Source: Anaerolineaceae bacterium oral taxon 439 | Lineage (GTDB): Bacteria > Chloroflexota > Anaerolineae > Anaerolineales > Anaerolineaceae | NCBI GenBank assembly: GCA_001717545.1 | Contig: CP017039.1 | Span: 1,240,001 to 1,304,000 of the forward strand | DNA: 64,000 bases | Reading direction: 5' to 3' | Part shown: piece after piece, positions 3,852 through 41,945 of the stretch | Layout: each line of letters opens with the position of its first letter | Numbering within the stretch: the first letter of the stretch is position 1 | Made by a program: the position numbers and the translations under genes | Notes under the pieces: model-generated | Seen by the model: only the letters and a program-made list of their open reading frames with translations | Told to the model about the DNA's origin: nothing | The model's database searches: none

Positions 3852-5229
3852 GGATGATTTCCTTTTTCATGATGGAGAGCGCTGATTCGGGATTGATTTC
3901 GGATAGGACGCCCATCGCGGAGAGAATATATTTTTTATCCAACAGGACGTCGACCCGGTTCGGCCGGAGCGAGCTGGGGAATTCCTTCGAATAGGAAGCG
4001 AAGGCGGCGATTTCCCGCGGCGCGGCGGCATGGATCAGCGCGCCGCCGATCAGGACGACGGTTTCGATTGAGCGAAGGTCTTTTCCTTCCTGAATAAAGA
4101 TTTGTCCTGCCGGCGTGTACGATTCTTCGATCGTTCCTGCGTGGCGGATCGTCGCCGCCTGAACCGCCGCGCAGGCGAACGCGTGATCCAGGCGGGCTTC
4201 CCGTTCGTTCCGTGGGAGGAGTCCGTGATTGGCCTGAACCTTGTCCGCCCAGGCGTTGACTTCGTCGACGCTGGTATCCGCGATCCGCGCGATCCGCTCC
4301 GCGCCGGCGGCTTCGAGGATGCCATGGATACTGATCCTCATGCCGATATCGCCTTCGACAGATCGCTTTTCATATGGATCGATCAGGCCCTTCAGGTATG
4401 TATTCGAGTTCTCGGGAGCGCCGTCCGCGATCGAGTAAACGTCGGTCGTCGCTCCGCCCAGATCGACCGCCATGAGCGGGCCGAGGCCGGGGTTTTGATT
4501 GACGCCCTTTGACAGGAGCGTCAGCGCTTTCAGGACGGATACCGGCGTCGGCATGGTAATTTCTCCCATGATGGTTTCCATTCGGCTCAGCCCTTTGGCG
4601 TGAATAATTTGCGAGAGGAAGGTTTTCCGGATCTGATCCTGAACCGGCCGGATATTCAGCTGGTCGAGCCTGGGGAGGACGTTCGGCGTTATCATCGCCG
4701 GTTTCCCGGCCGCGCTCAGGATTTTACAGCATTCGTCCGCCGCGTTCCGGTTCCCGGCGATCAGGATCGGACAGTCGATCCCGGATCGTGCCAGACGTTC
4801 AGCGTTGGTCAGAATGCATTTTTCATCGCCCCCGTCGGTCCCGCCTGTCAGCAGGAACAGGTCCGGGCGTGAGTTGAGGATAAAATCGATATCGCTGCCG
4901 GTTAATTTTCCGGCGAAGACCTTCAGGATTTTTCCGCCGCCGCCCAACGCGGCTAAGCGCGCCGCTTTCGCGGTCAGCTCGAGAACGAGCCCTGAGACGA
5001 TAATCCGAAGCCCGCCCGCTGCGCTCGAACAGGCGCGGATTGTCGGAAAGGCGAGCGGGCCGGCCGTCCGTTCAAGGAGGGCGCGCGCGCTGCGGAGCCC
5101 TTCGCTGATATCGGTTTCGACGGTCGTCGGACTTTGCGCCGTGCCCAGGATTTCTTCCGCGGCTTCGTCGACCGCGACAAGCTTTGTATAGGTGCTCCCA
5201 AAGTCAATTAACAGCGTCGCGTCTCTCAT
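3844..5229 (-). CDS. mutL: MutL/GlmL, glutamate mutase-associated ATPase (ASKHA fold)
   Basis: A 461-residue protein of the GlmL/MutL family encoded between the two glutamate mutase subunits; it is unrelated to DNA-repair MutL. The N-terminal phosphate loop LIDFGSTYTK (residues 7-16) and the internal LMAVDLGGATTDVYS mark the actin/Hsp70/sugar-kinase ATPase fold. The family is thought to act as a reactivase or chaperone for the B12 enzyme. GAGGAG lies 7 nt before the ATG. It overlaps mutE by 8 nt and is separated from mutS by about 27 nt. Confidence 0.9.
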   Translation of the reverse strand: MRDATLLIDFGSTYTKLVAVDEAAEEILGTAQSPTTVETDISEGLRSARALLERTAGPLAFPTIRACSSAAGGLRIIVSGLVLELTAKAARLAALGGGGKILKVFAGKLTGSDIDFILNSRPDLFLLTGGTDGGDEKCILTNAERLARSGIDCPILIAGNRNAADECCKILSAAGKPAMITPNVLPRLDQLNIRPVQDQIRKTFLSQIIHAKGLSRMETIMGEITMPTPVSVLKALTLLSKGVNQNPGLGPLMAVDLGGATTDVYSIADGAPENSNTYLKGLIDPYEKRSVEGDIGMRISIHGILEAAGAERIARIADTSVDEVNAWADKVQANHGLLPRNEREARLDHAFACAAVQAATIRHAGTIEESYTPAGQIFIQEGKDLRSIETVVLIGGALIHAAAPREIAAFASYSKEFPSSLRPNRVDVLLDKKYILSAMGVLSEINPESALSIMKKEIIHA

Positions 5230-5256
5230 TCGCAGCTCCTCAGAACCCGTCCGGCG

Positions 5257-5691
5257 TCAGGCGCTTTCCTCGGCGACCTCGACGCCGAGGTCCTGTTTCA
5301 GGAGGCGAACGCCGTCTTCCGGATCGGTCCCGGGCGGAAAGACGCGGTTGAACCCCATGTCAAGGAAGCGTTTTTCGACGTCTTCGAACTTCTGTTTCCC
5401 AACGACGATATTTCCGCCGATATAGAGGAGGATATCGCCGATTCCCGCTTCGATGCATTTATCGCGCATTCCGCGGCAGTCCAATTCGCCATGGCCGTAG
5501 AGCGAGGAGACGATAATCGCGTCGGCGTTGGTTTCGATCGCCGCGTTAATGAATTCATCCTGACTGACCATGACGCCTAAGTTGATGACTTCGAATCCGG
5601 CCTGCGTAAAAGCGAAATCGAGGATCCGAATCCCGACGGCATGAACATCCGCGCCAATGACGCCTATGACGAGTTTTTTCTTACGTTCCAA
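5257..5691 (-). CDS. mutS: glutamate mutase, sigma (B12-binding) subunit
   Basis: Small cobalamin-binding subunit (GlmS/MamA) of glutamate mutase, 144 residues. The base-off/His-on motif DxHxxG is present as DVHAVG at residues 15-20, so His17 is the predicted lower cobalt ligand. The segment [11 protein letters not shown] follows in the Rossmann-like domain. Translation probably starts at TTG 5689-5691, since AAAGGAAG lies about 6 nt upstream. This gene must not be confused with DNA mismatch repair mutS at the other end of the window. Confidence 0.93.
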
Positions 5692-8157: not shown

Positions 8158-8211
8158 GAATGCTCCTAAAGAGATAGTTCTTTTCGAATAGAGGCAGTTT
8201 ATTGTTTCTGT

Positions 8212-8243
8212 ATTATAGCTCACTATGACTGATTGGTTGTCAA
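8212..8243 (-). promoter_or_regulatory. candidate promoter of the methylaspartate operon
   Basis: On the minus strand a perfect -10 hexamer TATAAT (8212-8217) lies about 55 nt upstream of the first gene of the operon. A perfect TTGACA occurs at 8238-8243, but the 20-nt spacing is longer than the usual 16-18, so either a different -35 or an activator is used. Low to moderate confidence. Confidence 0.4.
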
Positions 8244-8323
8244 GATCGGCGCAGGATGAATGGCACTTTTTGTTCAGGATAAATGTCATGTGCGGTCAGG
8301 ATAATGAGTTTCAGGAGGCGGGG

Positions 8324-8350
8324 TTGCGTTCTGTGGAAAGGTGGTATAAT
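8324..8350 (+). promoter_or_regulatory. candidate promoter of tRNA-Lys
   Basis: TATAAT at 8345-8350 lies 18 nt before the tRNA. A partial -35 TTGCGT occurs at 8324-8329 with a short 15-nt spacer. Confidence 0.45.
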
Positions 8351-8367
8351 TTTGGCTCGGTAAGACA

Positions 8368-8440
<73 letters not shown>

Positions 8441-8747
8441 CAATATTTGGCCTGATAAATATTGATCGGGCAGTGTTATGTGTGCTTTCGCAGAGGCTCT
8501 GCCCGATCTGACCGGTAGCATATCTTCGGAAACCGAAAGCCCTGAATTTTCAACCTGAGATTTTCTTTACGGAAATATCGATCGCGTCCATCCAACGCCC
8601 AGGGACAGCGCGGGCAGAAATCCTCTGATCTTCGTCTAACTGATCTCTAATACGCCGTTAACAGCGACCGCCTACACTATACTTAGCTGACAGATCATAA
8701 GAATCGTACAGCGCGGCGACTCGCCGCGCTTTGAAGGAGGTCCATCC
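8441..8747. other. 307-nt intergenic region between tRNA-Lys and clpB
   Basis: No coding frame is supported. It contains the inverted repeat at 8464-8508 and, near 8678-8683, a TATACT that could be a -10 element for clpB without a convincing -35. I see no CIRCE-like palindrome. Confidence 0.5.
8464..8508. repeat. 10-bp perfect inverted repeat upstream of clpB
   Basis: Arms GATCGGGCAG (8464-8473) and CTGCCCGATC (8499-8508) flank a 25-nt loop. No T-run follows, so it is not a clear intrinsic terminator. It could end or process the tRNA-Lys transcript, or be a regulatory site for clpB. Confidence 0.55.
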
Positions 8748-11351
8748 ATGAACTTTGAACAATACACTCAGAAAGCAATCGAAGCCGTCAACCAATCGCA
8801 GCAAATCGCGCTCGAATTCTCACATCAGGCGGTCGAACCGGGTCACTTGCTCCTCGCGCTCCTTCGCCAGAGCGATGGGCTCGTTCCGGCGATCCTGACG
8901 CGCGTCGCTGGATCAGACGCCGGGCTGACCGCCGACGTCGAAAAATCGCTTCAGGCGCAGCCGAAAGTCTATGGCGGAAACGCCAGCCTGTCCGCGACCC
9001 AGTCCACGGCGCGCGTTTTCACTGACGCCGAATCGATTGCGAAAAATATGCGGGATGAATACGTCTCCACGGAACATCTCCTGTTAGCGCTCTGCGACAG
9101 CGTCGAAGGCCAACGGCTCAGCCGGTTCGGAATCGATAAACCCGCGATCCTGAAAGCGCTGAAATCGATCCGCGGGTCGCAGCGCGTCACCGGCCGAAAT
9201 CCGGAAGACACCTATCAGACGCTCGAAAAATATGGACGCGACCTGACCGCCGCCGCCCGTCAGGGGAAACTCGATCCGGTTATCGGGCGAGACGACGAAA
9301 TTCGTCGAACGATCCAGATCCTTTCCCGCCGGACGAAGAATAATCCGGCGCTGATCGGGGAACCGGGCGTCGGGAAAACCGCCGTCGTCGAAGGCTTAGC
9401 GCAGCGGATCGTCAAAGGCGACGTTCCGGAAGGACTGAAACAGAAGCGGCTCGTCGTTCTCGACATGAGCGCGCTCGTCGCCGGCGCGAAATACCGCGGC
9501 GAATTTGAAGAACGATTAAAAGCGGTCCTGAAAGAAGTCGCGGAAGCGGAAGGCGAAATTATCCTCTTCGTCGACGAAATGCATACGATTGTCGGCGCGG
9601 GCGGCGGAGACGGATCGATGGACGCGGGGAACATGATCAAACCCATGCTCGCTCGCGGCGAGCTGCACCTGATCGGGGCGACGACGCTTGATGAATATCG
9701 AAAGTATATCGAAAAAGACCCGGCGCTTGAACGCCGATTCCAGACCGTTTTCGTCGACGAACCGTCGGTCGAAGACACGATCAGTATCCTGCGCGGGTTG
9801 AAAGAACGCTACGAGATTCATCACGGCGTTCGAATTACCGACAACGCGGTTATTTCCGCCGCCGTTCTGTCGAACCGTTATATTACCGATCGGCAGCTTC
9901 CGGACAAGGCTATCGACCTGATCGACGAGGCGGCGGCGCGCCTTCGGACTGAAATCGACTCGAAGCCGTCCGTTCTGGACGATCTTGACCGCGATATCAT
10001 GCAGCTCGAAATCGAGAGGCAGGCGCTTCAGAAGGAAGACGACGACGCGTCGAAAGAGCGCCTGACGAAAATTGAAGCGTCGCTGAGCAACCTGAACGAA
10101 GAATCAAAACGATTAACGCTGCGCTGGAAAAGCGAAAAGGACGCAATCGAGGAATTGAAATCGATTAAAGAAAGCCTCGACGCAACGCGCACTCGGATCG
10201 AGCAGGCGGAACGCGACAACAACTTAGAAAACGCCGCCCGTCTTCGCTACGGCGAACTTCCGGAGCTGGAAAAGAGACGCGCCGCGGCAGAGGAAAAACT
10301 GAAAGACATTCAAAAAGACGGCGCGCTTCTCCGCGAAGAAGTTAACGCGGAAGAGATCGCCGAAGTCGTCGGGAAATGGACCGGGATCCCGGTTTCGCGG
10401 CTGATCGAAAGCGAAATGCAGAAGCTGGTCCAGATGGAAAACCGGCTCCACGAACGCGTCATTGGCCAGGATCAGGCGGTCATCGCCGTCAGCAACGCCG
10501 TTCGCCGCTCCCGCGCCGGACTTCAGGACCAGAACCGTCCGATCGGATCGTTTATCTTTCTCGGTCCAACCGGCGTCGGAAAAACCGAACTGGCGCGCTC
10601 GCTGGCAGAGTTTCTCTTCGACGACGACCGCGCGATGGTCCGGATCGACATGAGCGAATATCAGGAGAAGCATACTGTTTCCCGGCTGATCGGCGCGCCT
10701 CCGGGATACGTCGGATATGAGGAAGGCGGTCAGCTGACCGAGGCGGTTCGCCGCCGACCGTATAGTATCGTTCTTTTCGACGAAATCGAAAAAGCGCATG
10801 CCGAAGTTTTCAACGTTCTCCTCCAGCTATTGGACGACGGGCGGCTGACCGATGGGCAGGGACGAACGGTCGACTTCCGCAACACAGTTGTCATTATGAC
10901 TTCGAACGCCGGGTCGGAACTCTGGGCAAATAATCCGGAAGTCAAAATCGGACGAGATTTGCTCAATCAGGTGCTGCAGAAGACGTTCAAGCCGGAATTC
11001 CTGAACCGGATTGACGAAATTATCGTCTTTAACGCGCTGAACGTCGACGACCTGAAGAAAATACTGGCGATCCAGCTTCGCAGCCTTAAAAAACACCTGG
11101 CCGAACGGAAGATCGAACTGATATTGACGCCGGAAGCCGAAGCGTTCCTCGTCAGGGCCGGGACCAATATTGAATTCGGCGCGCGCCCGATCAAGCGCGC
11201 AATCCAGCGCGAGCTTCAGGATCCGCTGGCGATCCGGCTCCTGAGCGGTGAGTTCAAGGACGGCGATACGATCCTTGCCGATTATGACGAGAACGCCGGC
11301 GATGATACGGCGGGGATTACCTTCCGAAAAACTGCGTCGCCCGCCGGATAA
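8748..11351 (+). CDS. clpB: ClpB disaggregase, Hsp100 AAA+ ATPase
   Basis: 867 residues, the normal ClpB size. The order is: N-terminal Clp_N domain (1-145), first AAA+ module with Walker A GEPGVGKT and Walker [10 protein letters not shown], the ClpB-specific coiled-coil middle domain (about 410-530), and a second AAA+ module with GPTGVGKT and a C-terminal D2 domain. It works with DnaK/DnaJ/GrpE to pull proteins out of aggregates in the cytoplasm. A strong AAGGAGG lies upstream of the ATG. Transcribed alone and ended by the hairpin at 11413-11443. Confidence 0.97.
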
Positions 11352-30037: not shown

Positions 30038-31168
30038 ATGAAATATATTTCTGAGTCTGCCCATTTTATGGATTTTCCGATCGGAAATGGAAATCCGCGC
30101 AACAGCGAAGGATCTTTTCTGTCTGTGGATGGAAAGGATGAGATCCTGTTTGCTTATACATCTTTTGTCGGAGAAAAGGCACGTGACTTTACCAAAGCAG
30201 ATATAAAAATCACTCGCTCACACGATGGTGGGCGTACATGGGATACTCCTGTGACTGTGATCCATGCTAATGATTACGACGCAATGAACGTAATGAGCGT
30301 CTCACTCCTGCGCATGCAGAACGGTGATATCGGGATGATCTATCTGATCCGCATGAACTGGCTGGACATGCGGATCGTTATGCGCTACTCTGCTGATAGT
30401 GGTCGGACTTGGGGAGAAACCATTCGCTGTTCAGTGAGAGACGGATATTTTGTCATCAACAATGACCGGGCAATTCGTCTTTCATCGGGCAGGATCATTA
30501 TTCCTTCCGCAGAACATCGGAATCAAATCAATACGGATGGTAAAGTGATTTTTGCCCCGGCAGTGACGACCTTCTTTTATTCAGATGACGATGGAAAAAC
30601 CTGGAATGAATCGCAAACGGAACTGTCTTTCGAGAATATTCCTGTTTGTCGATCAGGTCTGCAAGAGCCCGGTGTTATAGAATTAAAGCCTGGATATCTT
30701 TATGGCTGGGCCCGGACAGATCTCGGGCGTCAATATGAATTTATTTCGGAAGATAACGGTGTTACATGGTCAGAAGCTATACCGTCACGATTCACATCCC
30801 CATTATCCCCGATGTCAATGAAACGTCTTCAGGGCGGGGAGATCATGGCGATATGGAACCCGATCCCGCTGAACAATATCATGAAAGAAAACAAGGCGAC
30901 CGGCGGACGCACACCGCTCGTTTATTCTCTCAGCAAAGATAACGGAATAACCTGGAGCGATCCGATGCCAATTGAGGATGATCCGGATGCAGGATATTGT
31001 TATACAGCGATCCTGCCGATGGATAACGCCGTCCTTCTTGCTTACTGTGCCGGAACGGAAGCGGATCTGGGCAGCTGTCTGAACCGTCTCCGCATCCGTC
31101 GTCTACAACTTTCCTCCGGAACCGGATCATCTGCTGACACGCCGCATTGCATGGGAATCGGTTTTTGA
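30038..31168 (+). CDS. sialidase-family protein (BNR/Asp-box propeller), cytoplasmic
   Basis: 376 residues, a six-bladed propeller of the sialidase superfamily. Five Asp boxes are visible: SHDGGRTW (61-68), SADSGRTW (118-125), SDDDGKTW, SEDNGVTW and SKDNGITW. There is no signal peptide, so it acts inside the cell if active. It may release sialic acid from imported sialosides, or act on another sugar acid. The start has no Shine-Dalgarno and lies 10 nt after a TATAAT, suggesting a leaderless message or a start further in (ATG at about 30068). Neighbouring sialate genes support the role. Confidence 0.8.
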   Translation: MKYISESAHFMDFPIGNGNPRNSEGSFLSVDGKDEILFAYTSFVGEKARDFTKADIKITRSHDGGRTWDTPVTVIHANDYDAMNVMSVSLLRMQNGDIGMIYLIRMNWLDMRIVMRYSADSGRTWGETIRCSVRDGYFVINNDRAIRLSSGRIIIPSAEHRNQINTDGKVIFAPAVTTFFYSDDDGKTWNESQTELSFENIPVCRSGLQEPGVIELKPGYLYGWARTDLGRQYEFISEDNGVTWSEAIPSRFTSPLSPMSMKRLQGGEIMAIWNPIPLNNIMKENKATGGRTPLVYSLSKDNGITWSDPMPIEDDPDAGYCYTAILPMDNAVLLAYCAGTEADLGSCLNRLRIRRLQLSSGTGSSADTPHCMGIGF

Positions 31169-31528: not shown

Positions 31529-32527
31529 CTATTTATAAAGATGGCAGGCACACAGATGCTCCGGATCAATCTTGTCCGGCGAAAGCTGCGGTTCTTCCTG
31601 TTTGCAGATGTCCATGCAGTGCAGGCAGCGTGTGTGGAAGGCGCAGCCAGGCGGTTTGTTGATCGGACTTGGCACTTCACCTTGCAGCACCTGACGCTTC
31701 TTTTCCTGATGGATCACCGGTACCGGGATCGCGGAGAGCAGCGCCTGGGTGTACGGATGCATCGGCTTGTCATATAACGAGCGCTTCCCGGCGATCTCGA
31801 CAATCTTTCCCAGGTACATGACCACGATACGGTCACTCATATACTGCACGACGGAAAGGTCATGTGCGATGAACAAATAGGTCAGGTTCAGTTCCTTCTG
31901 GATCTCCTTCATCAGGTTCAGCACCTGGGCCTGAATGGAAACATCCAGCGCACTCACCGGCTCATCGCAGATGAGGACTCTCGGGTTTACTTCCAACGCT
32001 CGGGCAATGCAGAGACGCTGACGCTGACCGCCGGAAAATTCATGCGGGAAGCGAAGCAGGTAATCCGGCTGGATGTTGACCATCTTCAGCACGGAATCCA
32101 TCATTTTCTCCCGTTCGGCTTTGGAATGAATCCCATGCACCTTCAGCGGTTCTTCGAAGGAGGTATAGATCTTCTTCAGCGGATTTAGTGCGGAGTAGGG
32201 ATCCTGGAAGACCATTTGCACCTGTTTGCGGAAGTCCAGCATTTCCTTCCCATTGAATTTTGTGATATCCCTGAAGTTTCCGTTTCCGTAGTTGTATTCA
32301 ACTGAACCGCCGGTAGGCTTCTGGAGCATCATCATCGTCTTTCCCAGCGTGGACTTGCCGCACCCGGATTCTCCCACGATACCAAGCGTCTCGCCTTTGT
32401 AAACGTCCAGACTTACGTTATCGACCGCTTTCACATGTCCGACCGTACGTTTGAACATGCCCTTTTTGATCGGGAACCACTGCTGGAGTCCCCGGACTTT
32501 AAAGATCAATTCTTTTTCGTTTGGCAT
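31529..32527 (-). CDS. Opp/Dpp-type ABC importer ATPase (OppF-like)
   Basis: 332 residues. Walker A GESGCGKSTLGKT, signature FSGGQRQRLC, Walker B VLICDEPVSALD, and the C-terminal oligopeptide-transporter extension with a cysteine cluster (CAFHTRCLHCMDIC) that in this family can bind an iron-sulfur cluster. Last gene of the five-gene transporter operon. Within a sialate island the likely cargo is sialic acid or a sialoside; the related SatABCD system of Haemophilus ducreyi is a precedent. Confidence 0.92.
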   Translation of the reverse strand: MPNEKELIFKVRGLQQWFPIKKGMFKRTVGHVKAVDNVSLDVYKGETLGIVGESGCGKSTLGKTMMMLQKPTGGSVEYNYGNGNFRDITKFNGKEMLDFRKQVQMVFQDPYSALNPLKKIYTSFEEPLKVHGIHSKAEREKMMDSVLKMVNIQPDYLLRFPHEFSGGQRQRLCIARALEVNPRVLICDEPVSALDVSIQAQVLNLMKEIQKELNLTYLFIAHDLSVVQYMSDRIVVMYLGKIVEIAGKRSLYDKPMHPYTQALLSAIPVPVIHQEKKRQVLQGEVPSPINKPPGCAFHTRCLHCMDICKQEEPQLSPDKIDPEHLCACHLYK

Positions 32528-32529
32528 GG

Positions 32530-33561
32530 TTAGTTAGCCTCCTTGTACTGGCTGAACTTTGTACAGCGAACTCGATGCCCAGGTTCGACTTCGTAGGCAG
32601 GAACATCCTTTGTGCGGCAGTATTCCTTGCACTCTGGGCAGCGATCGGCAAATTCACAGCCAATCTTCAGCGATGCCGGACTCGGCGTTGCGCCGGGGAT
32701 CGTTTCCAGTTTCTGGTCATCCGCAAGCCCAAGCACCGGCACGCTGCGCAGCAGCGCTTTGGTGTAAGGATGGGAGGGGTTTTCAAAGACCTGATCCAGA
32801 GAGCCGAATTCAACGATGCGCCCCATATACATCACACAGACGTCATCCGCCTGCTCGGCGACCAGACCCATGTTATGGGTGATCAGGATGATGGACTTGC
32901 CCATGTTCAGCTGCAGGTCTTTCATCAGTTCCATAATCTGCGCCTGGATCGTCACATCCAGCGCGGTCGTCGGTTCGTCGGCAATGATGATTTCCGGATT
33001 GTTAATCATGGCGATAGCAATCACCACGCGCTGTTTCATGCCGCCGGAAAACTGATGCGGATAGTCATTCAGACGTCCTTCCGGATCGGGGATACCCAGC
33101 TTTTTGAACATTTCCAGGACTTTCGCCATGGCTTCGGACTTTTTCATGCCCTTGTTATGTTCCTGCAAAGCTTCAGCAACCTGATCGCCGACTTTATAGA
33201 CAGGATTCAGGGATGACATTGGATCCTGGAAGACCATGCCCAGATCCGCGCCACGGAGAGAACGCATTTCCCTGCTCTTCGGATCGATCTTGGAGAGATC
33301 AAATTCCGTGATCTTTCCGGCCTTTTCATCCAGACGCCGGTAAACGACCGCGTCCGCATTGAAGCGGGCATTTTGCGGAAGGAGCTTCACAATCGAATGT
33401 ACGGTCACCGATTTACCGCAGCCGGATTCACCGACGATCGCCAGCGTTTTCCCTCGTTTCAGTTGGAAAGAGACATCTTTGACGATGCGGATGGTCTGAC
33501 CGTCAGAAACAAAGGAGGTGTTCAGTTTCCGGACATCTAATACGATATCTTTCTGTTCCAT
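32530..33561 (-). CDS. Opp/Dpp-type ABC importer ATPase (OppD-like)
   Basis: 343 residues with Walker A GESGCGKSVTVHS, signature FSGGMKQRVV, Walker B IIIADEPTTALD and the C-terminal extension containing CEFADRCPECKEYC. It pairs with the OppF-like ATPase, whose start lies 2 nt after this stop. An unusual 15-20 residue insertion follows Walker A (VVYRRLDEKAGKITEF), as seen in some peptide/nickel ATPases. Confidence 0.92.
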   Translation of the reverse strand: MEQKDIVLDVRKLNTSFVSDGQTIRIVKDVSFQLKRGKTLAIVGESGCGKSVTVHSIVKLLPQNARFNADAVVYRRLDEKAGKITEFDLSKIDPKSREMRSLRGADLGMVFQDPMSSLNPVYKVGDQVAEALQEHNKGMKKSEAMAKVLEMFKKLGIPDPEGRLNDYPHQFSGGMKQRVVIAIAMINNPEIIIADEPTTALDVTIQAQIMELMKDLQLNMGKSIILITHNMGLVAEQADDVCVMYMGRIVEFGSLDQVFENPSHPYTKALLRSVPVLGLADDQKLETIPGATPSPASLKIGCEFADRCPECKEYCRTKDVPAYEVEPGHRVRCTKFSQYKEAN

Positions 33562-33572
33562 TTTCTGCCTCC

Positions 33573-34439
33573 TTATTGCTGTTTCGGGTCAAGAACATCG
33601 CGCAGCCCGTCGCCGAAGAAGTTGACGGCCAGCACGAAGATCGTGATGGTTACGCCTGGGACGACCCATAGCCACCAGTAGTTGGAGATCACGTCCAGCG
33701 ACTTTGCCGCGTTCAGGATATTGCCCCAGGTTGGTGTCGCGGAAGGAACGCCGACGCCGATAAAGCTCAGTCCGGCTTCGGACAGGATGAAATGCGCCAC
33801 ATTGACTGTCGTCGCAACGATCACCGGCGACATGACGTTCGGCAGGATTTGCTTGAACATGATGTCCGATTTGGACATACCGAAAGCTTCGCAGACCTGG
33901 ACATAGGTCTCACCCTTCAGCGCGATGAATTCGTTTCGTACCATACGGAAGGTCGTCATCCAGCCGGTGACAGCAAATATGAACAACAGGTTGCCGATGC
34001 TTCGCCCGAATACCGCCCCGAGGATCAGGATCAGGATCATGTTCGGGACCGTCTGGAAGATCTCAGACGTGCGGACGATCAGGGTGTCGATCCACCTGCC
34101 AAAATACCCGGCAATAGCGCCTAAGACAACCCCGATCAGAGAACCGAAGAAAGCGCCGGTTACACCGATGAGGATCGAATAACGTCCGCCATACAAGATC
34201 CGGGAAAACACGTCTCGCCCCAGTTTATCCGTGCCGAAAATATGACCTGCGCTCGGCGGTATGGTTCTCGCGGAGAAGTCCGGTTGATCCGGACGATAGG
34301 ACGTAAAGATCGGAGCGAATACACACATCAGCAAAATGACAAGCATGACGATCATGCCAATCATTGCGAGTTTATTCCGTAAAAACTTTCTTACATTTTT
34401 CTTGAACATGCTGGAGGCATGCGATTTATCGAGTTTCAT
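33573..34439 (-). CDS. Opp/Dpp-type ABC importer permease (OppC-like)
   Basis: 288 residues with an N-terminal OppC_N helix (about 22-45), the periplasmic segment HIFGTDKLGRDVFSRILYGG typical of OppC/DppC, and a BPD_transp_1 domain with the EAA-like loop EAFGMSKSDIMFKQILPNVM. About 6 membrane helices. Lies between the OppB-like permease and the OppD-like ATPase with short gaps. Confidence 0.93.
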   Translation of the reverse strand: MKLDKSHASSMFKKNVRKFLRNKLAMIGMIVMLVILLMCVFAPIFTSYRPDQPDFSARTIPPSAGHIFGTDKLGRDVFSRILYGGRYSILIGVTGAFFGSLIGVVLGAIAGYFGRWIDTLIVRTSEIFQTVPNMILILILGAVFGRSIGNLLFIFAVTGWMTTFRMVRNEFIALKGETYVQVCEAFGMSKSDIMFKQILPNVMSPVIVATTVNVAHFILSEAGLSFIGVGVPSATPTWGNILNAAKSLDVISNYWWLWVVPGVTITIFVLAVNFFGDGLRDVLDPKQQ

Positions 34440-34455
34440 CTTTCTGCCCCCTTTC

Positions 34456-35403
34456 TTATCCGCTGCCCAGCCGTACGCGCGGATCGAGCAGCGCCGTCAG
34501 TACGTCAACGAGGAAGCTTGCGGTCAGGATCGCGGCAGCGACCATCAGCGTCGTCACCATAACGACCGGATAGTCTCCGGCAATGACGGCGTCGGTGATT
34601 ACGGAACCGATGCCGGGCCAGTTATAAACCGATTCGATTACCACGGAACCGCTGATCAGCATCGGCAGACGGAAGCACAGGATCACCAGTACAGGACGCA
34701 AAGCGTTGCGGAAAGCGTGCTTCACGTAAACCTTGGTTTCGGAGATCCCCTTCATACGCGCTGTCTTGATGTAATCGCTGTTCAGCACGCCCAACATATT
34801 ATTCCGGGAGTAACGCATTAAGACGGAGGTCAGGGACAGCGTCAGCGTCAGGCAAGGCAAAATAAAATGCTGAAGCGGTGTTGCGTAAGTCGAATAGCGT
34901 CCCGAGGACGGGAGCCAGCCCATTTTGATGGAAAAGAGCTGAATCAAACAGATTCCGAAGAAGAATTGCGGGATTGCCTGCCCGAGCACGGCGAAAAAGC
35001 GCCCGAGGTAGTCAATAATACTGTTTTGATAGATTGCGGATATGATCCCGATCGTTACTCCGAGGAAAGCGGATACCACCATGGAAACAAGCGCTAACTG
35101 AATGGTTGCAGGGAGACGCTGTTCCAGTATGGAGCCAATGGAGTTGCCGTTGGTAATACTGTAACCGAAGTTCCCGCGTAAAATATCTTCCGTCCAATTG
35201 ACATACCGTATCAGGAAAGGTTTATTCAAACCATACCGTTCACGGAGAAGGTCCAGATTTTCCTGATTGCCTGCCATGTCCGGGGTCACACTATAACTCA
35301 CAGGGTCGATACCGGTCAGCTGCAGCGCGCCATATACCAAAAAGCTGATAAACAGCAACATCGGGATCATCTGAAGGATTTTTTTGAGAATAAATTTAAG
35401 CAA
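34456..35403 (-). CDS. Opp/Dpp-type ABC importer permease (OppB-like)
   Basis: 315 residues, six helices, OppB/DppB family, with the N-terminal LLFISFLVYGALQLTGIDP and EAA-like loop TARMKGISETKVYVKHAFRN. The characteristic LRERYGLNKPFLIRY segment follows the first helix. Second gene of the operon, separated from the binding-protein gene by a hairpin. Confidence 0.93.
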   Translation of the reverse strand: MLKFILKKILQMIPMLLFISFLVYGALQLTGIDPVSYSVTPDMAGNQENLDLLRERYGLNKPFLIRYVNWTEDILRGNFGYSITNGNSIGSILEQRLPATIQLALVSMVVSAFLGVTIGIISAIYQNSIIDYLGRFFAVLGQAIPQFFFGICLIQLFSIKMGWLPSSGRYSTYATPLQHFILPCLTLTLSLTSVLMRYSRNNMLGVLNSDYIKTARMKGISETKVYVKHAFRNALRPVLVILCFRLPMLISGSVVIESVYNWPGIGSVITDAVIAGDYPVVMVTTLMVAAAILTASFLVDVLTALLDPRVRLGSG

Positions 35404-35432
35404 GGGGTGCCCCCTTTCCTTTTTCTAAAAAG

Positions 35433-35459
35433 AACGGGGATGCGCGACACACCCCCGTT
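35433..35459 (-). terminator. hairpin after the oligopeptide-type binding-protein gene
   Basis: Arms AACGGGG (35433-35439) and CCCCGTT (35453-35459); on the minus strand a CTTTTT tract follows. It lies 20 nt after the binding-protein stop and before the permease genes, so it should act as a partial terminator. Confidence 0.6.
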
Positions 35460-35479
35460 TAGATCAGATAAGCTTTACT

Positions 35480-37060
35480 TTATTTCAATTCCCAGTCCTC
35501 AAAGTGGACATTGGTCTTGTACCACGGATTCCCAAAGACAATGCCTTCCGGCAGCTTGACGGCATCTGTGTTGATGAAGACGTTGTTGCCGATGGTATAA
35601 AGCGGAAGTTTGTAGAGCTTTTCTTCTTCCACTTTCTGGAGTTCAACAAGAGCGGCATCCTTTTCTTCCTGAGTGGTCGCTGCGGCATAGGCGTCGATGT
35701 ACTCATCGAATGCGGTATCGCCGCCGAAGACCATGCGGAAGTTTGCATTCGCGGAGTTGTATTCGCCGTACCATTCGCTGATATCGAAGGCGGACAGGCC
35801 TTTATAGCCGATATCGTGGTTGCGGGTCTGAAACAGGTCCTGCGTACCGTTGGAAGTGACGGTGTATTCAGCCTTCATGCCGACCTCGCCAAGGTAATAG
35901 ACGATGGCATCCATGAAGTCCAGAGAAGTCTGGTCGCTGTAATACAGCAGGATGCGAAGGGTGTAGTCGAAGTCCCAGCCGGCATCGACCAACAGCTGAT
36001 GCGCCAGATCCGGATCATAGGCATATTCAGTGCCAATGGAAGCCGGATTCTCAGCAGCCACACCGCTGTTGGAAACATGGGCAAGGCCCGGGAAGAGGGA
36101 TTCGGCAAGGGTTTCGCGATCGATTGCGTGCATGATTGCCTGACGGACGCGGATGTCAGACATCACCGGGTTAGTGTTGCCGTCAACGCCTTCAATGTTG
36201 GCGAGGAAGTAGCGGTAGAACAGGATGTCAACCGGGAACATGGTCATGCCGGGGAGTTTGTTCAGCTCGGCGATGACTGCATTATTATTGGTGTTGGTCA
36301 TGTCGACCAAACCTGCCTGTGCAGCCGTGACCGGATCGGCGACGAAGTTGATAACGATCTTTTCGATCTTCGGCTTCGGCCCATCCCAATATTCGTTCGG
36401 AACCAAGGTGTAGTAGGAGCCGGCAACGAATTCATCCATTCTGTACATACCGCTCATGACCGGGTGGCTCCAGAATTCATTATTGGCGATTTCAAGCAAA
36501 TCCGCATCTTTCAGAATATGTTCCGGCAGGATAGTGAACTGACAGAAGACATTCGGCAGCGTGTTATGCGGGCTGGTCAGCTTGATGGTCAGCTTGTTTC
36601 CGTCAACGCTCAGGCCGGCAAGATCATCAGCGGCGCCTTCACGCCATGCATCCGCGCCTTCGATCTTTGTGAACGTGCTGGTATAGATACCATTGGAGGC
36701 AGCTGCTTTCAGGTTTGCTTTGATCGAAAAGACTACATCGTCGAGTGTGATCTCTTCACCATCGGACCATTTGGCGCCGCCGATGAAATCGATGGTATAG
36801 GTCAGGCCATCATCGGAGACTTCATAACCGCTGGCAAGATCCGGACCGATCGTGGCCATGTCCGGTTCAACGAAGAACAGCGTCCGCCACGTCAGGCCGC
36901 CCAGCATTTGCATGTTCATCCAGGGATAATCGATCTTGTCGCCAAGACCATCGTTTGCGGTGCTGATTAAATGGAAAGCTTTTTCATCCTCAGCAAAGGA
37001 TGGTAAGACGCTGACCATCGCAATTGTGAGAACAACAAATAAAACGATAAGTTTCTTCAT
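35480..37060 (-). CDS. solute-binding protein family 5 (Opp/Dpp type)
   Basis: 526 residues with a Sec signal peptide (MKKLIVLF, cleavage probably after SFA at residue 23) and a large SBP_bac_5 fold: the GYEVSDDGLTYTIDFIGGAKWSDG region, DIRVRQAIMHAIDRETL and LLVDAGWDFDYTL. No lipobox cysteine. Family 5 proteins bind peptides, nickel, or sugars; the surrounding sialate genes suggest sialic acid or sialo-oligosaccharide. Promoter-proximal gene, driven by the near-consensus promoter at 37137-37165. Confidence 0.92.
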   Translation of the reverse strand: MKKLIVLFVVLTIAMVSVLPSFAEDEKAFHLISTANDGLGDKIDYPWMNMQMLGGLTWRTLFFVEPDMATIGPDLASGYEVSDDGLTYTIDFIGGAKWSDGEEITLDDVVFSIKANLKAAASNGIYTSTFTKIEGADAWREGAADDLAGLSVDGNKLTIKLTSPHNTLPNVFCQFTILPEHILKDADLLEIANNEFWSHPVMSGMYRMDEFVAGSYYTLVPNEYWDGPKPKIEKIVINFVADPVTAAQAGLVDMTNTNNNAVIAELNKLPGMTMFPVDILFYRYFLANIEGVDGNTNPVMSDIRVRQAIMHAIDRETLAESLFPGLAHVSNSGVAAENPASIGTEYAYDPDLAHQLLVDAGWDFDYTLRILLYYSDQTSLDFMDAIVYYLGEVGMKAEYTVTSNGTQDLFQTRNHDIGYKGLSAFDISEWYGEYNSANANFRMVFGGDTAFDEYIDAYAAATTQEEKDAALVELQKVEEEKLYKLPLYTIGNNVFINTDAVKLPEGIVFGNPWYKTNVHFEDWELK

Positions 37061-37264: not shown

Positions 37265-38065
37265 TCAGGCGAATTTGCGGATCGTTTTCGCAATACCATC
37301 CTCGTATCCGGGTTCGCAGACGTAATCGGCGACGGCTTTCAGCACGTCCCTGCCGTTACCCATGGCAACACCAAATCCAGCCCATTTCGTCATGACGATA
37401 TCATTGGCGCTGTCCCCGAAGGTCATCACTTCTTCAGCTTTGATCCCGAGACGGATGCAGAGGTTCTGCAGCGCGGAGAGTTTGCTTACATTCGGAAGAA
37501 AAATGTCGGCGGTCACGCCGTTGTCATAAGGTTCCACGCGGTAATCCGTGGGCCAGACGGACAATTCTTTGATCATTTTTTCCCGCACATTGTGATCTGC
37601 CTGGAAGGTAAAGCCGATCGGCATTTTCTTCAGGTGGTAATCCATCATCTCACATTCAACTGTCGGGCAGGCACTGATGCCGATGTTGCTGAAAACCCCC
37701 CGCATTGTCTCCATACGCCGGTAAATACACTTTACATTGTTGAATTTCAGGATCAACCCGGCATCATATTTTACGCAAAGATCCAGAACGCGCTGTGTCT
37801 GCTCAAAGGTGAAGCGTTCCGTATAGATCGAACGGGTCTCGGAATCGAGAATGCTCTGTCCGCTGGCGGTGATAAAATAATCCGCCTGCACTTCCTTCTG
37901 GCAGGGAGTATTCAGTTCTGCATAGGTCCGCGCGGTCGCAAGAGCGATATACATGCCTTTTTCTTTCATTTCATGGATCGCCCCCAGGGAGGAAGGCTGA
38001 ATGCAATTATCATGATAATCCCAAAGCGTACCGTCGACGTCAAAAGCGATCAGTTTGTATTTCAT
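37265..38065 (-). CDS. Cof-type HAD-IIB phosphatase
   Basis: 266 residues. HAD motif I FDVDGTLWDYHDN (about 8-20, nucleophile Asp9), motif III lysine in the middle, and motif IV VMTFGDSANDIVMTKWAG (near 210). The C2-type cap places it in the Cof/YidA group of sugar-phosphate phosphatases. It is divergent from the NanA-like gene and upstream of the Opp operon. A role in dephosphorylating an intermediate of the island's pathway is possible. Confidence 0.9.
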   Translation of the reverse strand: MKYKLIAFDVDGTLWDYHDNCIQPSSLGAIHEMKEKGMYIALATARTYAELNTPCQKEVQADYFITASGQSILDSETRSIYTERFTFEQTQRVLDLCVKYDAGLILKFNNVKCIYRRMETMRGVFSNIGISACPTVECEMMDYHLKKMPIGFTFQADHNVREKMIKELSVWPTDYRVEPYDNGVTADIFLPNVSKLSALQNLCIRLGIKAEEVMTFGDSANDIVMTKWAGFGVAMGNGRDVLKAVADYVCEPGYEDGIAKTIRKFA

Positions 38066-38254: not shown

Positions 38255-39163
38255 ATGAAAGACCTTACAAAATATCAGGGAATTTTTCCTGCATTCTATG
38301 CCTGTTATGACGAGCAGGGTAATATTTCTCCCGAACGAGTGCGAGCTCTTACCGAATATTTTGTAAACAAAGGCGTTACCGGGCTTTATGTCGGCGGATC
38401 TTCCGGTGAATGTATTTACCATTCCGTAGCGGAACGTAAACTGGTCCTGGAAAATGTAGCGTCTCAGGCAGCCGGACGGATCGTGATCATTGCCCATGTT
38501 GCATGCAACAACACCGCGGATTCCATGGAACTGGCCGCTCACGCGGAAAGTCTCGATGTAGATGCGATTGCGGCGATCCCGCCGATCTACTTTAAACTGC
38601 CCGACCGTGCCATCGCTAAATACTGGAATGACATTTCCTCTGCAGCTCCGCATACGGATTTCATTATCTATAACATTCCCCAGCTTGCCGGTGTGTCACT
38701 GAATAAAGCCCTGCTGCGGACAATGCTGCAGAATCCCAACGTGATCGGCGTCAAGAATTCCTCCATGCCGGTTCAGGATATCGAAGACTGGCGGGATGAA
38801 GGAGTAATCGTCTTCAACGGTCCGGATGAACAGCTGCTGCCCGGTCTGACTGCGGGCGCCGTCGGCGGAATCGGCGGCACTTATGGTTCAATGCCCTGCC
38901 TGTATCTGAAGATCTTCAATCTGGTGAAGGAAGGCAAGGCGGTTGAGGCTCTGCCAATCATGGATGGCTGCAGAAGCGTTATTAATTTGATGTGTTCGGC
39001 AAGGGGGAATCTCTATGCCGTACTGAAGGCTGTAATTCGCATCAATGAAGGGATCGATGCTGGAAGCGTTCGTCCGCCGTTGATGGCTCTTGTGCCTGAA
39101 GATATGGCGATCGTGGAAGAAGCTGCAAGGCGCATTAAGGAACTGGAAGCTAAGTTTTTGTAG
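38255..39163 (+). CDS. N-acetylneuraminate lyase-like aldolase (DapA/NanA family)
   Basis: 302 residues, class I aldolase barrel. GLYVGGSSGE (43-52) fits the NAL-type GG(S/T)GE loop. The Schiff-base lysine is Lys167 in VIGVKNSS and the partner tyrosine is Tyr139 in IIYNIP, aligned with Lys165 and Tyr137 of E. coli NanA. It should split N-acetylneuraminate into ManNAc and pyruvate. The start at 38255 has AAAGGAG 8 nt upstream. First gene of the plus-strand operon that includes nanE. Confidence 0.88.
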   Translation: MKDLTKYQGIFPAFYACYDEQGNISPERVRALTEYFVNKGVTGLYVGGSSGECIYHSVAERKLVLENVASQAAGRIVIIAHVACNNTADSMELAAHAESLDVDAIAAIPPIYFKLPDRAIAKYWNDISSAAPHTDFIIYNIPQLAGVSLNKALLRTMLQNPNVIGVKNSSMPVQDIEDWRDEGVIVFNGPDEQLLPGLTAGAVGGIGGTYGSMPCLYLKIFNLVKEGKAVEALPIMDGCRSVINLMCSARGNLYAVLKAVIRINEGIDAGSVRPPLMALVPEDMAIVEEAARRIKELEAKFL

Positions 39164-39200
39164 ACAGAGACCGGCTGCAGGCAGTCGGAAAGGGGAAAGT

Positions 39201-40649
39201 TTGGATAAATATTTGATGCTCAATCGCAGCTATTTTCAGCCGCAGGGAATGGATAACGTGCGTCTGGTTTTAACGCAGGCCGAAAAGGACACGCAAAACA
39301 ACCCGTTGTTTCATGAAGATTTCTTCTCCGATCCGCCGCGCGGATGGGAAGCTCGATATGATAATTCCTATCCGAATGTGATCTACGACTCGAAATACGG
39401 AAAATACCGCTGTTATTACACGCTGTGTTCAAAGGATAACGATTCAGCAGGGGCTGACAAGGAAGAACGGGCCCGGCGGGATTACTGCCCCTCGCCGACC
39501 CGCATCGCATCACTGGCTTACGCGGAGAGCGATGACGGTATCAATTGGGTAAAGCCAAACCTCGGATTCGTGGAATTTGAGGGCAGCCGGGATAATAATA
39601 TGCTTTTCCGTTTTGCTCACGGGACTGGCGTATTTTTGGATGAAGATGAGACCGATCCGCGGAAACGTTATAAGATGGTGACCAAAGTCGAATACCCGGG
39701 AAAGAAGAATTACATGGCAGTCAACTTCTCGGAAGACGGTGTCCATTGGGGTGAGATGATCAAATGGCCGCGATGGAATCCTCCGGCGGATTCACACAAC
39801 TTACCCTTCCGGGATAAGCAGGATGGCCTGTTTAAAGTCGTTACCCGAATCTGGAAAGACGGAGTGCGCATTGAGGCGATCTGCTCCAGTCCGGATTTCA
39901 TCAATTGGAGCGCACCGCATGAGATCATCCGCGGCAGTGGTTTTGAGAGTCAGGTTTATTCCATGCCGGTCTTCTGGTATGACGGTATTTATCTTGGTCT
40001 TGCATCCATGTTCCATGAAGGCGACCGCTCCGCAGCGAACTTCGACACCGTGGATCTGGAGCTGACGCTGGGGACAACGGCTGAACGATTTGACCGCATT
40101 GCAACGGATCAGTACCTGATTCCGCGCGGGGATGGACATTATCCGAACGGAGATTTCGACTGCGGCTGCATATTCGCCGCACCGCCGCTTGAAATGGATA
40201 ACCGGCTGGTGTTTTATTACATGGGCGGCAACGGTCAGCATACTAATTTCCGGGAGACTTCCTTTGCCCGTGCATTTCTGCCAAAAGACCGATTTGCCTG
40301 CTATGAACCGCGGGATTCCAGACGGGAAGCGACTCTCCCGACACAAACCTTCTACGCTTACGGTGATGATCTGGCGATTCTTGCGGATGTCGCCGAGGGC
40401 GGGAAAATATCCGCCGCGCTCTGCACAAACTGGCGGTCGGAACCTTTTGAAGGCTATGGCTTTGCGGACTGTGTGTTGACCCCACGGGATGATGGATATC
40501 TGACCCTTCGCTGGAAAAAACCGCTGACCGCTCTTGAAAACACCGGTTTTTCAATTGTTTTTCACTTCTCCGGCACGAAGCTTTTTGCGATGAAAGGTGA
40601 AATTACGCCGCAGACCTCGCGTTATTATGAAGGCGCTCCGATACTCTGA
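39201..40649 (+). CDS. five-bladed-propeller glycosidase-like protein of unknown specificity
   Basis: 482 residues from a TTG start with AGGGG 5 nt upstream; an ATG at 39216 is an alternative without a well-placed site. The chain reads like a GH32/GH43-type five-bladed beta-propeller. Repeated patterns include YAESDDGINWVKPNLG, NFSEDGVHWGEM and SSPDFINWS, with acidic residues in NVIYDSKYGKY and YPNGDFDCGC. No signal peptide. I cannot assign a known family member. Its place between nanA-like and yhcH-like genes suggests action on a sialylated or sialate-derived sugar inside the cell. Confidence 0.7.
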   Translation: MDKYLMLNRSYFQPQGMDNVRLVLTQAEKDTQNNPLFHEDFFSDPPRGWEARYDNSYPNVIYDSKYGKYRCYYTLCSKDNDSAGADKEERARRDYCPSPTRIASLAYAESDDGINWVKPNLGFVEFEGSRDNNMLFRFAHGTGVFLDEDETDPRKRYKMVTKVEYPGKKNYMAVNFSEDGVHWGEMIKWPRWNPPADSHNLPFRDKQDGLFKVVTRIWKDGVRIEAICSSPDFINWSAPHEIIRGSGFESQVYSMPVFWYDGIYLGLASMFHEGDRSAANFDTVDLELTLGTTAERFDRIATDQYLIPRGDGHYPNGDFDCGCIFAAPPLEMDNRLVFYYMGGNGQHTNFRETSFARAFLPKDRFACYEPRDSRREATLPTQTFYAYGDDLAILADVAEGGKISAALCTNWRSEPFEGYGFADCVLTPRDDGYLTLRWKKPLTALENTGFSIVFHFSGTKLFAMKGEITPQTSRYYEGAPIL

Positions 40650-40664
40650 TCAGAAAGAGGATTT

Positions 40665-41114
40665 ATGATTTTTTGTAAACTTAAGGCCCTGGATCGTTAT
40701 CAGGGCCTTTCACACAATCTTGATACCGCTCTTCATTTCCTGATGGAGGCAGATCTTAACATGCTCGCAATGGGCAGAAATGTTATCGATGGCGATGCGG
40801 TCTATGTAAACCGTTTTGATTATGACACGGTTGCTGTGCCGATCACTGAAGGACATCTACGCTATATCGATATCCATGTTGTTTTAGATGGCGAGGAAGT
40901 GGTGGCGGTCTCGGATACAACCATGTTGACTGAGATCGAGAGGAAAGAAGATGAGGATTACATCGGTTTTCAGGGAGAACTTCAGAGCCTGAACATACTC
41001 CGGCCGGGAGATGTGCTGATCTGTTTTCCGGAGGATGCTCACAGTCCAAAACGTATTTGCGGATCCGAGTCCTGTCATGTAAAAAAAGCTGTAGTCAAGG
41101 TATTGGCTGATTGA
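40665..41114 (+). CDS. YhcH/YjgK/YiaL family protein (NanQ-type sialate anomerase)
   Basis: 149 residues of the DUF386 beta-sandwich family. RYIDIHVVLDGEEVV (about 66-80) and the C-terminal PGDVLICFPEDAHSPKRI, with conserved His/Glu metal ligands, match YhcH. The E. coli homologue (NanQ) opens and interconverts sialic-acid anomers. It lies 15 nt after the propeller gene and 10 nt before nanE, a context seen in many sialate operons. Confidence 0.88.
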   Translation: MIFCKLKALDRYQGLSHNLDTALHFLMEADLNMLAMGRNVIDGDAVYVNRFDYDTVAVPITEGHLRYIDIHVVLDGEEVVAVSDTTMLTEIERKEDEDYIGFQGELQSLNILRPGDVLICFPEDAHSPKRICGSESCHVKKAVVKVLAD

Positions 41115-41124
41115 TGAAATCCAT

Positions 41125-41832
41125 ATGTATAATATTAATGTTTATAATAAAATTATGCAGAAGCTGGCGGGCGGGATCATCGTCTCCTGCCAATCCAAAG
41201 AGGGGGACCCGACCCATTGCCCGGAATTCATGGCAGCCTTTGCCAAATCCGCTGAGATTGGCGGAGCTGCCGGGATCCGCGCGAACTCCGTGGTTGATAT
41301 CGAAGCGATCAAGAAGATTACGGATCTGCCGGTAATTGGCATCTGGAAGCGCCATTGGGAAGATGACTGGTGGAACATTATGATCACCCCGACATTTGCC
41401 GACTGCCGCGAACTCGAGGATGCCGGCGCGGATATCATCGCTATTGAAACCACCGGACGCAAACGCCCGAATAATGAGGATGTAAAAGAGCTTGTCGACC
41501 GTGTTCGCAATGAATTGAACGTTCCGGTTATGGCGGACTGTCATGACATGGAGGATGCCTTGCGGACTAATGCCGATATCATTGCCCCGACCCTTTCCTG
41601 TGTTGGTGGTGAAGAAGATTATATGCCCCCGTGGGCGCTCTTGGAACGGATGGTGAAGGAACAGTCCCGTCCGGTTATTGCGGAAGGTCATTTCTGGGAG
41701 CCGGCCTGCGTTACACGCGGGTTTGAGATCGGTGTTCACGCCATTGTCATTGGTTCTGCCATTACCCGCCCATGGATGATCACCGAACGCTTTGTCCAGT
41801 TCAGCCCGCAGGGAAAGGCTAAGAAATCATGA
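41125..41832 (+). CDS. nanE: N-acetylmannosamine-6-phosphate 2-epimerase
   Basis: 235 residues, NanE TIM barrel: KLAGGIIVSCQS at 13-24, GAAGIRANSV, PVIGIWKR, and the catalytic lysine and acidic residues in these strands. It converts ManNAc-6-P to GlcNAc-6-P. The ManNAc kinase that should precede this step is only present as a truncated stub directly downstream (ATGA overlap), so phosphorylation must be supplied elsewhere. Confidence 0.93.
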   Translation: MYNINVYNKIMQKLAGGIIVSCQSKEGDPTHCPEFMAAFAKSAEIGGAAGIRANSVVDIEAIKKITDLPVIGIWKRHWEDDWWNIMITPTFADCRELEDAGADIIAIETTGRKRPNNEDVKELVDRVRNELNVPVMADCHDMEDALRTNADIIAPTLSCVGGEEDYMPPWALLERMVKEQSRPVIAEGHFWEPACVTRGFEIGVHAIVIGSAITRPWMITERFVQFSPQGKAKKS

Positions 41833-41945
41833 CCCTCTATGCGTCAGGCGTTAACGCGGCGGCGACCAATCTCCGCTGTGCTCTGGTCAATGAGGGAGGT
41901 GAGATTCTCAAAGAAATACGGGAACGAGCTAAAGGTATCTCTGGG
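41829..41945 (+). pseudogene. truncated ROK-family kinase (NanK-like) stub
   Basis: The frame starts in an ATGA overlap with nanE and its first 35 or so residues resemble the start of a ROK sugar kinase (GVNAAATNLRCALVNEGGEI, where functional kinases have G-[ID]-[DL]-GGT). After about EIRERAKG the sequence becomes antisense to the end of the neighbouring araC gene and no longer looks like a kinase. So at least 250 residues are missing. The junction is probably the right edge of the island. Confidence 0.7.

Follow-up and report, generated by a model that had tools for sequence, protein, structure and literature searches.

A gene of Anaerolineaceae bacterium oral taxon 439 (39201–40649, + strand; TTG start) encodes a 482 aa protein with a predicted five-bladed propeller, which could not be placed in a named family of the libraries searched and which lies within a sialate operon. 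Positions are those of the window, i.e. the whole 64,000-nucleotide stretch of contig CP017039.1 that was analysed. We tentatively propose, with somewhat less than even confidence, that the protein belongs to an unnamed family and acts as an enzyme in the cytoplasm, where it would turn an imported sialoside into the free sialic acid that is then handled by the YhcH-type protein and the N-acetylneuraminate lyase (NanA) encoded on either side of it; both the cargo of the importer and the action of the enzyme are what we infer. No report of this family in a sialate operon was found in the open-licence literature.

The propeller gene is embedded in a sialate operon

The earlier note had described the gene as co-transcribed between a lyase and an anomerase-like gene within a sialate operon, and the neighbourhood agrees with this description. 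The nanA gene (38258–39163, + strand) ends 37 bases upstream of the propeller gene, a YhcH/YjgK/YiaL gene that reads as NanQ-type anomerase-like in Pfam and NCBIfam (40665–41114, +) begins after a gap of 15 bases, and nanE, encoding ManNAc-6-P 2-epimerase (41125–41832, +), follows after another 10 bases; such short gaps make co-transcription of the four genes likely. NanA is closely related to RgNanA of Ruminococcus gnavus, with best PDB matches to 6rab (E 1.8e-124) and 6rb7/6rd1 (E 1.3e-123), and scores below the NCBIfam nanA equivalog cut-offs. RgNanA itself is given as PDB 6RD1 (PMC10017367). The window YhcH, also below the NCBIfam anomerase equivalog cut-off, is 64% identical to the yhcH product of a related cassette (locus L003, see below). 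What the window holds is a sialate lyase linked to YhcH and to an epimerase, while nanK (ROK kinase) is present as a truncated remnant of about 37 codons (41829–41939, +), recognised by homology to the nanK of G047, a genome of the same genus. This homology breaks off at 41939, where an AraC gene of the opposite strand adjoins the junction; in G047 the intact nanK adjoins a nanE that is 90% identical to that of the window.

On the other side, a divergent gene for a Cof-type HAD hydrolase (37265–38065, −; Pfam, NCBIfam) forms part of the cassette, and beyond it lie the genes of an OppA-OppB-OppC-OppD-OppF oligopeptide-type ABC importer (31529–37060, −), in which OppA was recognised by Pfam and PDB matches and OppB to OppF by eye. 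OppA was compared with the sialic-acid-binding SatA and shows no particular closeness to it, the match to 5z99, which we take to be SatA, standing at E 1.8e-8 and below many peptide binders. A putative BNR_2 sialidase-like protein, with no signal peptide by inspection, is encoded beyond the opp genes as seen from the propeller gene (30038–31168, +). Elsewhere in the same genome (L143, G000:C1:660001-670000), a second cluster of sialate-like content combines a NanA paralog of 41–42% identity with a sugar ABC importer and the beginning of an epimerase gene that looks AGE-type by eye. The R. gnavus nan cluster (RgNanA, NanOx and the SAT2 importer) resembles the window in its lyase, but has SAT2 and NanOx where the window has the Opp-type importer and the propeller protein; a SAT2/NanOx reading of the cassette was dismissed because none of its genes looked NanOx-like by eye.

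The mechanical open reading frame of the propeller gene opens at 39090 (519 aa), overlapping the lyase gene, and ends at 40649. The TTG at 39201, already proposed as the start, is the better choice because a purine-rich stretch (39186–39200, +), which is probably the ribosome-binding site, precedes it, with CGGAAAGGGGAAAG standing directly before the TTG, and because the ATG of the homologs in L003 (MNKYLFLDRS) and L004 (MDKYLLLNRG) aligns to exactly this codon. The window and L003 genes are 78, 84 and 44% identical at codon positions 1, 2 and 3 with 72% of the residues kept, a pattern that points to constraint at the protein level; the gene is real. Inspection revealed no signal peptide, and the protein is presumably cytoplasmic.

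An unnamed family with a five-bladed propeller fold

Searches of Pfam-A, NCBIfam and PHROGs returned no match to the propeller protein at E≤1, neither to PF04041 (GH130) nor to the BNR families of Pfam-A, and phmmer against the PDB sequences gave none at E≤10. Nine homologs compared with Pfam at E≤10 matched no propeller or glycosidase family. The view that the protein is not placeable in a named family thus holds for these three libraries at E≤1, and clear membership in a characterised family, named beforehand as the decisive counter-finding, did not turn up in the libraries searched. Among 30 family members compared with NCBIfam (E≤1), five touch the model for beta-1,2-mannobiose phosphorylase (best E 3.1e-5) and one touches a model for sucrose-6-phosphate hydrolase (E 0.14). 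A 30-member profile (alignment A1 holds 30 sequences out of 57 distinct matching ORFs) matched in the PDB GH130 7fip (E 3.2e-8), GH32 1uyp (E 1.1e-5), the Flavonifractor plautii GalNAc deacetylase 6n1a (E 1.6e-5, a weak similarity in three short stretches) and GH117 4u6d (E 3.1e-5), with sialidase chains marginal at E 0.39 and above. Alignment of the family with 14 GH130 proteins by hhalign gave 98.9% (E 3.4e-17) over 262 columns; this GH130 set consists of the 14 out of 30 loci with an [EQ]D[PA]R motif in the ORF, so that conservation of the catalytic Asp follows from the way the set was chosen.

The AlphaFold2 model (pLDDT 85.1, pTM 0.86; 17 sequences) displays a propeller at about residues 20–370 and a C-terminal beta-sandwich at about 372–470; alignments A2 and A3 comprise 17 sequences, the window's included. 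The best PDB fold match is GH130 7fip (Z 26.9, 277 aligned, 2.7 Å). The F. plautii deacetylase chains 6n1a/6n1b were matched at Z 24.7–24.9 (6n1b: Z 24.9, 295 aligned, 3.5 Å; fold search E 9.3e-10), GH62/GH43 chains at Z about 21–23, and GH32 and GH117 chains were also retrieved. The five-bladed propeller previously read from the letters of the gene is supported by the model and by PDB matches led by five-bladed families, and its kinship with GH32/GH43-type propellers by these folds, by the profile matches to GH130 and GH32 and by the hhalign result. On these models and profiles, we best read the protein as representing an unnamed family in the group of five-bladed propellers to which GH130, GH43, GH62 and GH32 belong. 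When the C-terminal 111 residues were folded alone they again gave a sandwich (pLDDT 91.7), for which the search brought up only weak matches to CBM- or galectin-like sandwiches (Z 5.1 at best).

Several known systems bear comparison. GH130 (PDB 7fip, 9fj8, 5a7v) shares the five-bladed propeller and provides the best fold and the best profile match, but the protein differs from it by the missing PF04041 match, by an H140 that apparently takes the place of the EDPR-motif Asp and by the extra C-terminal beta-sandwich. The catalytic domain of the F. plautii deacetylase shares the propeller as well, with an alignment that runs to residue 463 of the model, but its profile similarity is weak, as given above. 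GH33 sialidases are six-bladed propellers with an Arg triad, a Tyr/Glu pair and an Asp. Sialosides are handled by GH33 and GH181 sialidases, whose six blades contrast with the five-bladed families leading the fold list of our protein, a list from which absence does not exclude a family. In the GH181 enzyme Amuc_1547, the usual sialidase Tyr is replaced by His/Gln (PMC12018670).

Pocket residues appear to depart from the usual acid sets

As we read the DSSP strands, the five inner strands would begin after residues 54–59, 138–142, 197–201, 249–254 and 318–323 of the model. D54, N55, Y57, H140, H199, R216, R223, Q251, Y253, D320, H347 and R351 are identical in 15 of 15 clade rows (of the 22 tree rows, 15 entered the residue table; the 116 aa fragment of G918 was left out of alignment and tree), and in the model these invariant residues sit at inner-strand starts and at the ends of neighbouring strands. 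The catalytic acids of GH43/GH32 are an Asp in blade 1, an Asp in blade 3 and a Glu in blade 4. By strand register these positions appear to fall on Y57 or D54, H199 and Y253, so that the evidence leans towards the three-acid set not being kept in this protein, which has its fold in common with GH43, GH62, GH32 and GH117. The GH32 signature motifs WMNDPNG and EC are also missing from the translation, which sets it apart from that family; an FRD string occurs at 203–205, in the hairpin of blade 3.

The catalytic Asp of GH130 is described as invariant in that family (PMC4599007). The model strand 139–146 would put H140 at this position and D147 in a hairpin loop. In contrast, hhalign pairs D147 with the GH130 Asp, at low column confidence and beside gaps, and this pairing is disfavoured by the DSSP strand assignment. 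The cluster of three acidic residues for which inspection of the central pocket had been suggested thus does not emerge from the strand register, where Y57/D54, H199, Y253 and H140 probably occupy the corresponding positions. Since the pocket-side residues are identical in relatives with non-sialate neighbourhoods, they would define the type of enzyme and not its specificity for sialate.

The cassette in other genomes and its origin

Copies with about 70% identity or more were found, besides the window, in G533 (L003, 72%), G534 (L004, 70%) and G918 (L086, 72% over a 116-residue fragment). L003 and L004, from two Oscillospiraceae MAGs, have the order Opp importer-propeller-YhcH-[NanA]-HAD; gene order and strand differ from the window whereas the content of the cassette is kept. 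OppBCDF lies beside the propeller gene in four of four genomes and OppA in the three that are testable, the G534 contig starting inside OppB and the G918 contig ending inside the propeller gene. Where testable, YhcH follows the propeller gene (3/3), the cassette includes HAD (3/3; two overlapping ORFs in L004) and NanA is adjacent (2/3). G533 has no NanA ortholog (best match 24%), though the propeller protein, YhcH and HAD are present. The NanA of G918 (66%) is encoded alongside an RpiR-type regulator and an AGE-type epimerase, and NagA-like and NagB-like genes accompany them.

NanE was tried as a marker of the cassette and discarded: it was not found in G533, G534 or G918 (E≤1e-10), and G037, G044 and G047, all of the same genus as the window, have NanE and no propeller protein. 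As NanE and the propeller protein do not go together across genomes, both NanE and the remnant of nanK appear to be native to the genus. The sialate cluster of G047 (L160, 3342–10693) was seen to contain an RpiR-type regulator, a sugar ABC importer, another YhcH, a 72% NanA and two genes that look GDSL-type by eye, in a genome that gave no propeller match.

Within the family of the window, none of the other 146 genomes examined (13 of the same genus, many of them incomplete drafts) gave a match at E≤1e-5; within its class, 47 of the 396 sampled genomes have relatives, the window's genome included. In a tree of 22 rows obtained by a quick search with no bootstrap, the window protein groups with L003 and L004 (SH-aLRT 100). 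These three fall inside a five-row group with G633 and G1217 (SH-aLRT 97), apart from the class-mates in the tree; G633 and G1217 were found by searches around the two Oscillospiraceae records, and the G1217 row is long and odd in composition. The lack of matches in the other genomes of the family, together with the grouping with Oscillospiraceae, makes horizontal acquisition the simplest account, apparently jointly with the importer. Plasmid records contained no relative at E≤1e-5. Named records of the family come from Bacillota, Chloroflexota, Poribacteria, Planctomycetota and Hydrogenedentota.

Neighbourhoods of more distant relatives

We searched 38 stretches around relatives of the propeller protein with the window proteins (blastp, E≤1e-6). 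NanA was found in L004 only and NanE in none of the 38, while YhcH was found in L003, L004, L012 and L089. In this survey of homologue contexts, proposed as a check in the earlier note, the sialate link is confined to the ~70% group, and NanA or NanE is present in 0 of the 35 stretches outside it. In two of these 35, a YhcH-type gene adjoins the relative. In L012 (Paenibacillus, 3210–5302) the end of the yhcH-type ORF overlaps the start of a 25% relative, and in L089 (Poribacteria, 8199–10503) the gene shares the strand of a 31% relative and is located 460 bases downstream of it. The recurrence of YhcH at such places is in keeping with an enzyme releasing a reducing sugar, which is not necessarily sialic acid.

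Other relatives have other neighbours. In G633 (49%) the gene stands alone and the genome has its own sialate cluster elsewhere without it, and in G1217 (41%) it occurs with GH39, GH3, NagB-like, two NagA-like genes and a GDSL-type gene just under the Pfam cut-off. At three of six f23 loci (L044 10827–16928; L046 10923–15155; L049 35–4503) the relative adjoins a set of three or four similar genes that share its strand, and the one that was scanned is ADP-ribosylglycohydrolase-like (PF03747). In f41 it comes after sugar ABC permeases among the genes listed, which are longest-ORF calls, a procedure that misplaced several genes in GC-rich loci.

Proposed function and competing explanations

Of the single readings considered for the propeller protein, that it hydrolyses an imported sialoside is the likeliest, and we put this a little short of an even chance. 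The Opp-type importer would bring in a small glycoside containing sialic acid, or an otherwise blocked sialic acid. The propeller protein would turn this compound into free N-acetylneuraminate, most likely by hydrolysis of the glycosidic bond in the central pocket, where D54, H140, H199, D320 and their neighbours would replace the usual acid pair. YhcH would open or anomerise the freed sugar, and NanA would split it into pyruvate and ManNAc. That the family as such consists of new intracellular five-bladed-propeller sialidases or sialoside-processing enzymes with an invariant Asp/His/Tyr/Arg pocket (D54, Y57, H140, H199, R216, Y253, D320, R351) where related glycosidases have their acid pair, working with an oligopeptide-type importer to "import first, desialylate inside", we regard as doubtful. 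Nothing in these results speaks for or against the trans-sialidase or lyase-type activity suggested in the earlier note.

The protein may instead act on the sugar next to sialic acid (e.g. a hexosaminide or galactoside of an imported sialyl-oligosaccharide) or on another sugar taken up by the same importer, in which case the BNR sialidase-like protein or some other source would free the sialate. This is favoured by the other members of the clade, which have identical pocket residues in non-sialate contexts, and also by the BNR_2 protein (30038–31168) as a competing candidate for sialate release, the G533 cassette with the propeller protein, YhcH and HAD but no NanA ortholog, and the YhcH-type neighbours without NanA in L012 and L089. 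However, NanA and YhcH are the immediate neighbours of the propeller protein in the window, and by eye none of the cassette genes was taken for a hexosaminidase or galactosidase; we consider an action on the neighbouring or another sugar unlikely. The protein could also be a metal-dependent deacylase (N-deacetylase or O-acetyl esterase) that, like the F. plautii enzyme, removes acyl groups from imported amino sugars or sialic acids. 6n1a/6n1b are among the closest structures and appear in the profile search, the pocket side is rich in invariant His and Asp (H140, H199, H347, D54, D320), and the 41% relative has NagA-like, NagB-like and GDSL-type genes beside it. The deacetylase propeller presumably holds its metal by a His/Asp/Glu set, but where it has a histidine in blade 4, our protein has Y253 (by eye, with 6n1a fragments aligned); we rate deacylation as quite unlikely. 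Homologs of the 6n1a fragments were found in 0 of 297 genomes by a search run without positive control.

GH130, as the nearest profile and fold, also raises the possibility of an inverting phosphorylase like the GH130 mannoside phosphorylases, whose sugar phosphate product would then be handled by the HAD hydrolase encoded in the cassette. The invariant R216 aligns with a GH130 arginine that we take to be at the phosphate site of these phosphorylases, and H272, which 9 of 15 rows keep, is paired with a histidine of GH130 in the alignment. In the remaining six rows, though, H272 is replaced by Asp or Asn, the position of the GH130 catalytic Asp is probably taken by H140, and we know of no use for a sialyl phosphate of such type; we consider phosphorolysis very improbable.

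In gut bacteria, secreted-sialidase and 2,7-anhydro routes have been described, and import of still-attached sialic acid, if true, would differ from both as they are presented there (PMC10017367). If the propeller protein does process imported sialosides, sialic acid could enter the cell still attached, leaving less for competitors. Because the family is wide and unmatched by Pfam and NCBIfam models, one assay of the propeller protein would help to annotate a large set of proteins. Separately, a Poribacteria genome (G535) contains 21 matches to the propeller protein, a large paralogous expansion.
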